From assembly GCA_001005265.1 (NCBI GenBank), contig CP011392.1, positions 930,001-994,000 on the forward strand: 64,000 nt of DNA, read 5' to 3'. The DNA comes from Dehalogenimonas sp. WBC-2 (GTDB taxonomy: Bacteria > Chloroflexota > Dehalococcoidia > Dehalococcoidales > Dehalococcoidaceae). A program made the position numbers and the translations under genes. Shown one piece after another: positions 20,368-62,752 of this stretch; position 1 is the first letter of the stretch, and each line of letters starts with the position of its first letter. The notes below the pieces were generated by a model. That model was not told the DNA's origin and made no database searches. It saw only the letters and a list, made by a program, of their open reading frames with translations.

Positions 20368-21864
20368 CTATTCTTGTGCCAGCATCTCAGCCAGGTTCAC
20401 CAGAGTCGCCACAGGCACTCCGCTACCGCCCTTTGTAAGATGTCCTTTTTCTTTATCGCCCCATGCTGTCCCGGCAATATCGAGATGCACCCAAGGTGTT
20501 TCACCGATGAATTCGGATAAAAATAGCCCGGCTGTGATTGTTCCCGCGCCTCGTCCGCCGACATTCTTAATATCAGCATATTCACTTTTATATTGCTCTC
20601 TGTATTCATCCCAGGCGGGCAACTGCCATATCCGCTCTCCCGCCGCGGTACCAGCCTTAATTACCTTATCAACAAGGCTCTGATTATTGGTAACGGCAGC
20701 ACTTGTAATGCTTCCCAAGGCGATGACACAAGCACCAGTCAGTGTCGCCATGTCTACAATAGCTTTTGGATTTTCTTTGTTTATATAACCCAATGCATCA
20801 GCCAGAATAAGGCGGCCCTCGGCGTCTGTGGAAATAACTTCGACTGTTTTACCGGTGAACATTTTCAATACATCGCCGGGTTTGAACGCACCGCCATCCG
20901 GCATGTTCTCCGTGGCAGGCACCGCAGCAATAACGTTGATTTTAAGTTTCAACTTGCCAATAGCACCCATAGCGGCAATAGTAGCAGCACCGCCGCTCAT
21001 ATCAAATTTCATTTCCTCCATTTTGTCAGAAGGCTTTATTGATATACCACCACTGTCAAAAGTGAGCCCTTTGCCAACTAACGCCAGATCCCATCCGTCA
21101 TCACTACGACCTCTATAACGCATGATAATAAGCTTGGGAGGATGCACGTCCTTTGATGCTTGAGAAACCCCCAAGAGTCCACCCATACCCAATTTTTCCA
21201 TATCACGGCGTTCAAGTACCTCAATTTTAAACCCGGAATCACGGGAGACCCGCTGAGCAGTGGCGGCCATATCCTCGGGAGTCATATGATTTGAAGGTTC
21301 ATTGGCCATATCCCTTGCCAGAATAACTGCCTGTGATACGATCTCGCCTTTTTGAACACCTTTTTTAAACTCGTCATGGTCAAGTTTCCCCTCAGATATG
21401 ACCGTCAGAGACTTCAACTCGCCGTAGTCAGCTTCTTTGGTTAGGTGTTTGCGGAAGCCATAGGAGCCCAGAAGGGCCGCCTCAGTTATGGCCCTGCTGA
21501 TTTCGGTTGACCTGAGTTCCAGTTTGGGCAAGGCTAAAACTAAATTCAATGAATTCTTCTTCTGTAAGTTGCGGCATCCATCCGCCACCGCCGCCCGAAG
21601 TTTTGTGGCATCAAAATCCTTTTGCTTGCCTAATCCTAAAATCACCGCTTTGGTGGCAACAATTTTTCCCAGTGAGTGAAACAGCGTGAACTCACTGGCC
21701 TTACCCTTAATCTCCTGGCTTTTCCTCAAGAGAGCAATATTCCCCCCAAGTGCTTTGTCCAGTGCCTTTTCAGTATCCGATCCTTCGACATCTTCGAAGA
21801 TGGCCAAGATAACAGCATCGGCCTTGATTTTGGTGACTTCACCGGTTGCCAATTTGATTTCCAT
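20368..21864 (-). CDS. pepA: Leucyl aminopeptidase, M17 family
   Basis: 498 residues. The C-terminal catalytic half has VGKGLTFDSGGISIKPSDKM (metal-binding Lys and Asp), MSGGAATIAAMGAIG, VISTDAEGRLILADAL (metal ligands Asp and Glu, the family signature) and ATLTGACVIALGSI. The N-terminal half is the usual variable domain. It removes N-terminal residues from peptides in the cytoplasm, with two divalent metals. GGAG precedes the ATG. It lies 9 bases after the P-loop kinase gene on the same strand, so the two probably share a transcript. Confidence 0.95.
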   Translation of the reverse strand: MEIKLATGEVTKIKADAVILAIFEDVEGSDTEKALDKALGGNIALLRKSQEIKGKASEFTLFHSLGKIVATKAVILGLGKQKDFDATKLRAAVADGCRNLQKKNSLNLVLALPKLELRSTEISRAITEAALLGSYGFRKHLTKEADYGELKSLTVISEGKLDHDEFKKGVQKGEIVSQAVILARDMANEPSNHMTPEDMAATAQRVSRDSGFKIEVLERRDMEKLGMGGLLGVSQASKDVHPPKLIIMRYRGRSDDGWDLALVGKGLTFDSGGISIKPSDKMEEMKFDMSGGAATIAAMGAIGKLKLKINVIAAVPATENMPDGGAFKPGDVLKMFTGKTVEVISTDAEGRLILADALGYINKENPKAIVDMATLTGACVIALGSITSAAVTNNQSLVDKVIKAGTAAGERIWQLPAWDEYREQYKSEYADIKNVGGRGAGTITAGLFLSEFIGETPWVHLDIAGTAWGDKEKGHLTKGGSGVPVATLVNLAEMLAQE

Positions 21865-21873
21865 TTTACTCCT

Positions 21874-22467
21874 CTATTTCAGTCTGTTGACTTCAGATAC
21901 TATTCTATCAATTACAGGGGAAATGTCCATGTGGCTTTTCACGGTAAGGTGAGATGACTTGATCGGTTCATATTTTCCTTCAAGCATCTGGTACACTTCC
22001 CAATTGGCATCAGAATAACTTTCTCGCTCCGCAATTCGTTTCGTCAGACGATTTTGGGCTACTTCGCGAGGTGTTTCCATATAGATGATTATAGATTTGG
22101 CATCTGTTTCCTCTGCGATCTTCATCAGTGGTTGCCGGTACTCTTCGTTGAGATTAGTTGCGTCCAATATGACGCTATATTTCGCCTCCAAAAATTCGCG
22201 AGTTAATGCATGAATAGCTCTGAATACTCTGAAATGTTCCTTTGGGGAATAAATCGGACGCTTAACCAATGTTTTCCTCAAATAATCACTCTCAAGTATT
22301 ACAGCGGGAATTTGGAGAATAAGTTGAGAAGCAAAGTAACTTTTACCACTGCCTGGTAAACCGACCATGATGATTAATATAGGGTGAGCGATTTTTTGTG
22401 GCAACGAAGACGCCAGTGCAACACGTAGTTTGTACACATCCCGGGCACTTAGAGAGCCATGTTTCAT
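21874..22467 (-). CDS. P-loop kinase of the zeta-toxin/polynucleotide-kinase type
   Basis: 197 residues with a clear Walker A, IIMVGLPGSGKSYFASQLIL (about residues 30-48), then VILESDYLRKTLV and SVILDATNLNEEYRQPLM, the D-A-T-N motif of the AAA_33 group, and later TPREVAQNRLTKR as the lid. Substrates in this group range from nucleic-acid ends to small metabolites, so none can be named. Likely cotranscribed with pepA. Confidence 0.82.
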   Translation of the reverse strand: MKHGSLSARDVYKLRVALASSLPQKIAHPILIIMVGLPGSGKSYFASQLILQIPAVILESDYLRKTLVKRPIYSPKEHFRVFRAIHALTREFLEAKYSVILDATNLNEEYRQPLMKIAEETDAKSIIIYMETPREVAQNRLTKRIAERESYSDANWEVYQMLEGKYEPIKSSHLTVKSHMDISPVIDRIVSEVNRLK

Positions 22468-22526: not shown

Positions 22527-24032
22527 TTATTCCAACAATCCGAACATAGCCAATTGTCCGTTCGGCGACCGTGAGATATCCGAAACGAATAGCACTTTCT
22601 TGGGACATTTGTAATTTGCCAGCCGGTCAAGGCAGAACTTTTTCACTTCCTGTTCAGTCATCGTCGCGCTTTCTTTCAGTTTGACCACCGCTAAAACTAC
22701 CTCACCTCGCATTTCATCAGGGTCACTTATACCAGTCGCGGCTGCGTCTTCCACCAGAGGATGAGTAATCAACACGTCTGATATGTCGGAAAAGTATATA
22801 TTCTGACCTTTGGTAATTAGCATTGGCTTTTTCACACCTTTGATGAAAAGCTCTCCTTTTTCATCAATCACCCCGATATCATCGGTGTAAAGCCAGCCGT
22901 CGCGAATATATTTAGCTGTATCTTCCTTTCGGTTGTGATAAGCCTGCATAATCGGCCCGCGTATAATTACTTCACCCGGTTCACCCGCTGCCATGGAACC
23001 ACCGTCTTCATTGACTATTAGTATTTCAAATCCTGATATGGCAGTGCCGACTCCACCACTGATACCGGTCTTGGTAACGTCCTGACAGGTGACATGGGTA
23101 GTTGATTCAGTCAGGCCATAGTATTGAACCAGATGTTTGCCGGTAAGGTATTCGAAGTCCGTAATTACGCTTATCGGTATAGGAGCACCAGCACTGCCAC
23201 AAAATCGTAGAGAGCTGATATTATATTTAAGACCATTAGTTTTGATGTGGTTAACCACCATCGCGTGGATAAACGGCACGCCATGGAACATGGTTGCACG
23301 CTCTTTTTCGATAGCACACAATAATGCATCCATTGAAATTCCGTTAAGCATCACCACTCTGCTACCAGCATAAAGCGCCGTCATCATGATAATAGCAATG
23401 CCCATAGTATGGTGCAATGGCAAAGCAAACAATACCACGGTATCCAGTTCACTTTGCCCAAAACCTGCTGCCGACCCCTCAGCTGCTTTGATGAGACCAA
23501 CCTGAGTTATTTCGGCACCGTGCGGTCGCAGTGTCGGACCAGAGGTATAGGCGATATGCGCTAATTCCGGGTATTTATTGATCTGTGGCGCGACCTCAGC
23601 AGCGTTGAGCAGCGATATGTAAGAGTTATATTCAGATGTACCGTCACCCATGCTTATCACATTGACTAGTGAGGCAAACTGGGGTAATTCCGATCCAAGG
23701 GTTTTAAGTATAGATGCCTCAGCAATAAGAGCTTTAGGAAGGCAATCGTTGAGTACCGCCTTGATCTCTAACAGCTTATATTTAGTATCCAGCGGTATGG
23801 CAATTGCGCCCGCTTTTATAACACCAAAGTAAATGATTACAAAATCAGGTGTATTTTCTAAAAGCATGGCCACTTTATCACCGGTTTTAATACCAAGGTT
23901 GATCAAACTATTAGCCAGACCATTCGACAACCTATCCAATTCCTTAAAGGAGAGTCTCCGTTCTCCCATCTGAAAAGCGGTTCTATCCTGATGTTGCCGA
24001 CTTATGCCAGCTAAGAAAGAGATTAAATTCAT
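22527..24032 (-). CDS. AMP-forming acyl-CoA ligase homologue with degenerate catalytic motifs
   Basis: About 501 residues from the ATG at 24030-24032, which has GAGGAA 7 bases upstream; a longer frame has no ribosome site. The ANL fold is clear: RRLSFKELDRLSNGLANSL, VAMLLENTPDFVIIYFGVIKAGA, LRFCGSAGAPIPISV, YGLTESTTHVT, GEVIIRGPIMQAYHNR. But the phosphate loop, normally YTSGTTGxPKG, is YTSGPTLRPHGAE (near residue 160). The hinge GRxKD is GVKKP. The C-terminal SGKxxRR lysine is absent (SPNGQLAMFGLLE). It is either a pseudoenzyme or has changed chemistry. Confidence 0.85.
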   Translation of the reverse strand: MNLISFLAGISRQHQDRTAFQMGERRLSFKELDRLSNGLANSLINLGIKTGDKVAMLLENTPDFVIIYFGVIKAGAIAIPLDTKYKLLEIKAVLNDCLPKALIAEASILKTLGSELPQFASLVNVISMGDGTSEYNSYISLLNAAEVAPQINKYPELAHIAYTSGPTLRPHGAEITQVGLIKAAEGSAAGFGQSELDTVVLFALPLHHTMGIAIIMMTALYAGSRVVMLNGISMDALLCAIEKERATMFHGVPFIHAMVVNHIKTNGLKYNISSLRFCGSAGAPIPISVITDFEYLTGKHLVQYYGLTESTTHVTCQDVTKTGISGGVGTAISGFEILIVNEDGGSMAAGEPGEVIIRGPIMQAYHNRKEDTAKYIRDGWLYTDDIGVIDEKGELFIKGVKKPMLITKGQNIYFSDISDVLITHPLVEDAAATGISDPDEMRGEVVLAVVKLKESATMTEQEVKKFCLDRLANYKCPKKVLFVSDISRSPNGQLAMFGLLE

Positions 24033-61870: not shown

Positions 61871-61882
61871 GGGAGAGTGAAA

Positions 61883-62752
61883 ATGAAAATTGTAACCGAC
61901 AGCGGAACCGATGTAGGTCTATCTGCGCAACAACTCACAGAATTTGGTGTCAGCGTTGTCCCTCTTGTTGTTTCACTTGAAGGAAAAAGCTATTACGAGG
62001 GGATAGACATCAAACCAGGTGAGTTTTATCGCCAGTTAGCAGCAACGAAATCCTTACCAAAAACCTCTCAGCCCTCAGTGGGCGCTATTTCTGAAGTTTA
62101 TAAACGTATCGCTGCCACTGACCCGGAAATTTTATCCATACACATGTCATCGGGTTTAAGCGGCACATTCAACGCTGCTCAAGCAGCCGCAAAACTCGTA
62201 CCAGAGGCAAATGTTACCCATATTGATACCAAAACCTTATCTGCTGCGTCCGGTTGGCAGGTTGAGGCAGCAGCAAGAACGGCAAAAGCAGGATGGGCCA
62301 AAGATCGGATTTTGTCATTACTGAAACGCATCGGAGAAGCCAGCGAGAGCCTTTACACTTTGAAAGAACTTAAATATCTGATTCACGGCGGGCGAATAAG
62401 CCATTTTACAGGCACAATAGCATCTATACTGGATATAAAACCACTTATTGGAGTAGAGAAGAAGGGCGGCACATATGTACAACTTGGACGTGTACGTACC
62501 TTTAATAAGGCTTTAGAAGGACTTGTTGACCTGATCTCACGTAAGCATCCTGACGGTAGCTCCCTACGTGTTCAGGTGCTTCATGCACACAATCCTGAAG
62601 GTGCTGAAGGACTGCATGATATGGTCAATAAACGATTTAATTGTACGTGGCTGCCGGTTGGCCCCTTATCCCTGGTACTTGGTGCTCATACAGGACCAAG
62701 TATGGTAGGAGTTGCTTATGCTCCCAACGAAATTTTTGCTGAAATACCATAG
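61883..62752 (+). CDS. DegV family fatty-acid-binding protein
   Basis: About 289 residues from the ATG at 61883, with GGGAG 7 bases upstream. DegV marks: KIVTDSGTDVGLSAQQL at the start, KTSQPSVGAI, the lipid-contact block IHMSSGLSGTFNAAQAAAK, and a C-terminal domain with LKELKYLIHGGRISHFTG and LGAHTGPSMVGVAY. DegV/FakB proteins carry fatty acids for phosphorylation by a FakA-type kinase; that kinase is not in the window. Single-gene unit. Confidence 0.93.
   Translation: MKIVTDSGTDVGLSAQQLTEFGVSVVPLVVSLEGKSYYEGIDIKPGEFYRQLAATKSLPKTSQPSVGAISEVYKRIAATDPEILSIHMSSGLSGTFNAAQAAAKLVPEANVTHIDTKTLSAASGWQVEAAARTAKAGWAKDRILSLLKRIGEASESLYTLKELKYLIHGGRISHFTGTIASILDIKPLIGVEKKGGTYVQLGRVRTFNKALEGLVDLISRKHPDGSSLRVQVLHAHNPEGAEGLHDMVNKRFNCTWLPVGPLSLVLGAHTGPSMVGVAYAPNEIFAEIP

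Follow-up and report, generated by a model that had tools for sequence, protein, structure and literature searches.

An acyl-CoA ligase-like protein of Dehalogenimonas, apparently unable to adenylate, and its conserved clade in the Dehalococcoidales

The loss of catalytic motifs in an acyl-CoA ligase-like protein of Dehalogenimonas sp. WBC-2 is real, and it is the visible end of a process that runs through a whole clade. The protein belongs to a clade of ANL homologues centred on the Dehalococcoidales. Judging from published mutants of homologous enzymes, it is likely to be incapable of making an acyl-adenylate at a useful rate, and it probably has a different job from fatty-acid activation, because the relatives keep the gene under strong selection despite the lost residues. 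We give a probability of roughly one half to the reading that it is a non-adenylating pseudo-ligase, whose ligands would be an acyl group, an AMP- or CoA-type molecule, or both, and which would act in acyl or lipid metabolism. The gene lies in a stretch of 64,000 nucleotides (contig CP011392.1, positions 930,001 to 994,000; hereafter the window), taken from a genome of 1.73 Mb in a single contig. Positions below are those of the window.

22527..24032, minus strand: acyl-CoA ligase-like protein of the ANL fold, 501 aa, apparently unable to adenylate

Loss of the adenylation motifs

The reading frame runs on the minus strand from an ATG at 24032 to a stop codon at 22527-22529 without any internal stop, in agreement with the first-pass annotation, which had seen no frameshift. 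The 501-residue product scored 246.4 bits with Pfam AMP-binding (PF00501) and 56.6 bits with AMP-binding_C (PF13193), both above the cut-off, and these domains together with the two-domain fold place it in the ANL superfamily. Among the best 25 NCBIfam models none scored above its own cut-off; the nearest, NF004837 (long-chain-fatty-acid--CoA ligase), gave 352 bits against a cut-off of 476. Automatic annotation is expected to name the product a fatty-acid--CoA ligase, and such a label is probably wrong.

Three motifs are altered in this protein:

23517..23549, minus strand: A3/P-loop, codons 162-172, YTSGPTLRPHG (canonical TSGTTGxPKG)
22824..22838, minus strand: A8/linker, codons 399-403, GVKKP (canonical GRxK[DE]), with V400 replacing the class I-invariant arginine
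22554..22556, minus strand: codon 493, Gln replacing the A10 catalytic lysine, in the context SPNGQLAMFGLLE

The first-pass annotation had read the P-loop as TSGPTLRPHGAE, GRxKD as GVKKP and the C-terminal (A10) lysine as absent, and all three readings proved exact. Compared with the ligase consensus [TS]SG[TS]TGxPKG (PMC6122825, Table 3), the segment TSGPTLRPHG deviates at three conserved positions, with Thr replaced by Pro166, Gly by Leu168 and Lys by His171; in a set of 374 class I sequences these positions are conserved at 72 %, 93 % and 97 %, respectively (PMC6122825). Five positions are reported as invariant across the same set, including the linker arginine, the A10 lysine, the A5 glutamate and the A7 aspartate (PMC6122825). 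Two of these five are gone here, the linker arginine of GRx[KD] having become V400 and the A10 lysine Q493, while the A5 glutamate (E309) and the A7 aspartate (D385) are in place.

In published work, the linker arginine of DltA touches the ATP beta-phosphate (PMC4176424), and the A10 lysine is the residue for the adenylation half-reaction (PMC11253843). The counterparts of these two residues in 4-chlorobenzoate:CoA ligase (CBL) have been mutated, R400A and K492A showing a roughly 100- to 600-fold loss (PMC6122825). However, some single P-loop mutants listed in Table 2 of the same source are mild, K169M of CBL costing 4-fold and G219A of FadD 42 % of Vmax (PMC6122825), which counts against a protein unable to adenylate.

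Retained residues and structure model

The following segments are conserved among the relatives:

22800..22811, minus strand: codons 408-411, KGQN, predicted to belong to the pantetheine tunnel (A8 loop) and the same in all 49 clade members whose P-loop is altered
22530..22544, minus strand: C-terminal tail, codons 497-501, with the pattern F-x-L-L-[DE] in 8 of 8 genus orthologues

In the numbering of the window protein (P0001), onto which we mapped the residues from our own alignments, H208, E309, D385, K408, G409, Q410, N411 and K475 are each present in all 49 members with an altered P-loop, and T308 in 48 of them. The A10 lysine is found in just 16 of the 49. The counterparts of E309, D385 and T308 bind Mg, ribose and the alpha-phosphate, respectively; the A8 glycine is part of the lining of the pantetheine tunnel (PMC6122825). 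With these positions fixed and the P-loop, arginine and lysine residues lost, the pattern indicates that the AMP and CoA side of the site has been retained and the ATP-cleaving side lost. We also considered K408 of the KGQN loop as a unique new catalytic residue and rejected this candidate, because a lysine occupies the same position in the outgroup rows L063 and L064_115.

The AlphaFold2 model of the protein is confident (pLDDT 89.5, pTM 0.90) and can be superposed along its whole length on solved ANL enzymes, with a TM of about 0.90 (5bsr, 3a9v), which bears out the earlier description of a fold intact over 501 residues. The model fits thioester-state structures (5bsr 2.9 Å, 5x8f 2.8-3.0 Å, 3rg2 2.6 Å) and is far from ATP-bound structures in the adenylation state (4fut 11.1 Å, 5bsm 10.7 Å). 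A canonical ligase, L117, was modelled as a control from an alignment that combined five other distant rows with 36 clade rows and the window protein, and gave the same pattern (5x8f 3.9 Å, 3cw9 5.1 Å; 4fut 12.0 Å, 5bsm 11.7 Å). Since the control adopts the same thioester-like pose, the pose is uninformative and we dropped it from the argument. A hinge locked by P403 was likewise rejected, as P403 lies one residue past the hinge position K402 (DltA numbering, PMC4176424).

Distribution and phylogeny of the clade

We surveyed 61 genomes, namely the source genome and 60 relatives. Some match was present in 58 of them, at 390 bits or more in 30, and six further genomes held family fragments at contig ends, which we excluded from the count of family members; the remaining genomes had more distant paralogues or no match. 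The gene occurs in all eight genomes of the genus, the other seven copies being 64-74 % identical. The same P-loop and a GxKKP linker are found in all eight and the A10 lysine in none, so the alterations are not due to chance or to an error in one genome.

A scan of GTDB contigs yielded 52 loci, 45 of them (L067-L111) at 39 % identity or more and the other seven at 23-28 %. The records of the 45 are mostly labelled Dehalococcoidales, Dehalococcoidia, Chloroflexi or Chloroflexota, with a few Deltaproteobacteria MAGs. Three contigs with Deltaproteobacteria titles (L075, L077 and L092) carry gene copies and neighbours of the Dehalococcoidales type, and these MAGs are likely to be mislabelled or mixed. 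Across the class, in a scan of 294 genomes, the matches listed fell into two groups, one at 662 bits or more and one at 429 bits or less.

De-duplication left 54 family rows, of which 51 were placed on a tree built from 69 of 75 rows, leaving out the fragments L061, L062 and L092 and the rows L112, L114 and L115. This was a quick tree without bootstrap, in which L134 branches first and L060 second, ahead of the 49 rows whose P-loop is altered (support 98, 99 and, for the 49-member node, only 85). L134, from genome G157 of the same class, is a canonical distant sister with TSGTTGNPKG, GRKKE and the A10 lysine; L060 has TSGSTAHPKG, also with the A10 lysine. In the 49 altered rows the fourth position of the loop is P in 45, A in 3 and Q in 1, and the position of the loop lysine is R in 23, H in 14, K in 6, Q in 5 and T in 1.

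The first-pass annotation had described three independent active-site changes. The losses are indeed real and shared among relatives, but they do not go back to one event. On the 51-row tree the T/S of the P-loop underwent a single state change, which is old and spans nearly the whole clade, the linker (A8) arginine was lost in 22 of 51 rows with at least 3 state changes, and the A10 lysine in 33 of 51 with at least 12, counted without inferring direction. The replacements at A10 are many and varied, and some members end just before the site. Taken together, 17 of the 51 rows have lost all three features, 16 the P-loop and the lysine, 11 the P-loop alone and 5 the P-loop and the arginine, and 2 have lost none. 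The 11 relatives that combine an altered P-loop with both the arginine and the lysine indicate that a P-loop change alone need not abolish activity; these members may be active, which counts against our preferred reading.

A tree and a search for shared substitutions had been proposed as a check, and the outcome was positive: besides the P-loop that is identical throughout the genus, all three losses occur in 13 of 13 sampled members of the window's family and its sister family (8 + 3 + 2), with residues that sometimes differ. The three members of the sister genus, for example, have TSAAQLRPQG and a Leu at A10. As a control within the same genomes, an AMP-binding paralogue of 638-640 aa retains TSGTTG in four genomes of the genus. 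At these four loci (L033, L034, L035 and L036) it sits after a gene that we take to be PepA and before what are presumably branched-chain ABC transporter genes.

A second, separate ANL clade was observed in the same class (L135, L138, L141, L144 and L065; five rows, support 100). Its P-loop reads TSGVLG in four rows and VAGMSG in L135, the A8 region is altered, the A10 lysine is present in four of the five, and L065 has a DegV gene nearby.

Purifying selection

Nei-Gojobori dN/dS was 0.078-0.081 in the two least saturated pairs within the genus and 0.10-0.14 in the sister genus, compared with 0.05-0.13 for PepA and 0.03-0.14 for IleRS; dS was saturated in most pairs, and the values given here come from unsaturated pairs only. 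A ratio of about 0.08 indicates that the gene is not decaying. The eight orthologues of the genus share 245 of 501 identical residues, of which 228 show synonymous codon variation. All 11 P-loop residues are identical in the eight, with at least two codons in use at 10 of the 11 sites, and the A10 site holds four different residues. Both the window's genus and the sister genus sit on long stem branches (0.53 and 0.86 changes per site), which fits an early burst of change and later constraint.

A decaying copy among orthologues with intact motifs would have spoken against the first-pass annotation; we found no close orthologue with intact motifs, and the dN/dS points the other way. Of the proposed selection for a new non-ligase role, the purifying selection holds, whereas the role is something we can only infer, among operon partners that vary.

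Gene neighbourhood

The next gene downstream is a small kinase-like gene:

21874..22467, minus strand: small P-loop kinase-like protein (AAA_33), 59-bp gap

It is followed after a 9-bp gap by a gene at 20368..21864 (minus strand), which from its sequence we take to be a leucyl aminopeptidase-like gene (PepA). The fullest row seen in the relatives comprises an ATP-grasp_5 gene, the ANL gene, a FabF-like ketosynthase (KS), a PadR regulator, a membrane protein, DegV, PlsY, the AAA_33 kinase and PepA. We placed 53 of the 54 rows, the window's own row not being included, and counted downstream genes in the 37 members whose available sequence extends 4 kb or more on that side: PepA in 26, the kinase in 21, DegV in 14, PadR in 9, the FabF-like KS in 8 and PlsY in 5. 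The ATP-grasp_5 gene is immediately upstream in 12 of 46 members, and at L147, the locus of the canonical sister, a ketosynthase is directly downstream. However, an acyl-type neighbour is absent in 17 of the 37 members, and in the window's genus only the kinase and PepA are left, the DegV, KS, PlsY and ATP-grasp genes having gone; both facts count against a role in acyl or lipid metabolism. The AAA_33 kinase gene evolves fast (dN/dS 0.16-0.38 in computable pairs), yet it is kept downstream in the 21 relatives counted above.

The source genome contains one FakA, four DegV, one PlsX and three other AMP-binding matches above the cut-off, so fatty-acid activation may have other routes. Of the four DegV (FakB-like) genes, one is located in the window itself, at 61880-62725 on the plus strand and far from the ANL gene; it is a paralogue, 33 % identical to the DegV encoded in the operon of the sister genus. 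Two candidate partners were rejected. DegV is not an obligatory partner in the genus: identity to the operon DegV reaches no more than 35 % in the eight genomes, compared with 53 % in the sister family. An ATP-grasp partner providing ATP in trans was dropped as well, since the stand-alone gene has no match in two genomes of the genus, and the six others yield matches of only 39-43 %, most of them within long open frames.

Interpretation

In our preferred reading, the ancestor would have been an ordinary acyl-activating enzyme with its gene beside a ketosynthase, and a lineage-specific ANL subfamily would have dropped the adenylation half-reaction but kept its acyl pocket and pantetheine tunnel, together with the AMP side of the nucleotide site. 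The resulting protein would most likely work without catalysis: it would bind a fatty-acyl group, an AMP- or CoA-type molecule, or both, and act as a sensor, chaperone or carrier of acyl groups bound for membrane-lipid synthesis. Both the binding of a ligand and the connection with lipid synthesis are our inference.

It is unlikely, in our judgement, that the protein still functions as an acyl-CoA (or acyl-ACP) ligase, with a changed phosphate loop and a different residue standing in for the A10 lysine. Such an enzyme would fit the retention of E309, D385, T308 and H208, and K408, invariant in 49 of 49, could serve as a relocated lysine; the 11 members with arginine and lysine both present favour it too, and fatty acyl-AMP ligases, which tolerate a different loop, offer a precedent. 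Mutants in which P-loop substitutions are tolerated point in the same direction (PMC6122825). The loss of two of the five superfamily-invariant residues weighs against it, and the A10 site, being variable within the genus (four residues in eight orthologues) and cut off in some members, argues against any required chemistry there.

Less likely again is a protein that carries out the second half-reaction only, as an ATP-free acyltransferase taking acyl-phosphate (from FakA/DegV) or acyl-AMP to acyl-CoA or acyl-ACP. With acyl groups activated elsewhere, the ATP-handling residues would be dispensable, and this would explain the repeated loss of the A10 lysine with KGQN, E309, D385 and H208 unchanged in the 49 rows. 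The invariant KGQN loop and AMP side are in line with it, as are the DegV genes alongside 14 of 37 members and the FakA, several DegV and PlsX of the genome. However, we know of no ANL enzyme that uses acyl-phosphate, the adjacent DegV is gone from the genus, and the thioester-like pose is also seen in the canonical control. The lost linker arginine, moreover, also aids the thioester step in homologues, R400A of CBL showing a 600-fold loss with CoA (PMC6122825). Decay of the gene, or its retention merely through operon position, would account for the missing catalytic residues and for the partner genes lost in the genus, but it is highly improbable in view of a dN/dS similar to that of PepA, a frame intact in all eight genomes of the genus, with 64-74 % identity in the other seven, and the many residues kept identical through synonymous codon change.

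Comparison with known systems

Pseudoenzymes have been well studied in kinases and, to our knowledge, hardly in the large ANL superfamily. Our literature search found no paper on this protein and, in the parts of the ANL pseudoenzyme literature that it covered, no report of this family. The clade forms a natural series within one lineage, from the intact L134 through the serine P-loop of L060 and the members with an altered P-loop that keep arginine and lysine to those that have lost both. Along this series one can examine which half-reaction is abolished by which loss, and what function the remaining protein has. It would also bear on fatty-acid handling in the Dehalococcoidales, which include organohalide-respiring bacteria.

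The class I ANL acyl-CoA ligases (PF00501 + PF13193; 4-coumarate:CoA ligase, MatB, FadD13) share with the window protein the two-domain fold over its full length, the key A4, A5 and A7 residues and the tunnel glycine. Unlike them, the window protein has Thr, Gly and Lys of the P-loop replaced and lacks the linker arginine and the A10 lysine. In the FakA/FakB(DegV)-PlsX-PlsY system we know of no described ANL protein. The likeness to this system (PMC9136124) lies in the DegV and PlsY genes that some relatives carry in the row of the ANL gene and in the FakA, DegV and PlsX of the genome, whereas the adjacent DegV is missing in the window's genus.

The closest published parallel that we found is the degenerate FAAL-like domain 2 (FLD2) of DIP2 in fungi and animals (PMC9342972), and this was the one paper to which a literature search on fatty acyl-AMP ligase loops pointed. 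Compared by its description there, FLD2 is likewise a conserved ANL domain in which both adenylation motifs are degenerate and which is tied to lipid homeostasis, and its authors regard it as having diverged toward a function yet to be found (PMC9342972). FLD2 is fused to the active domain FLD1 (PMC9342972), whereas the window protein is encoded by a stand-alone bacterial gene.
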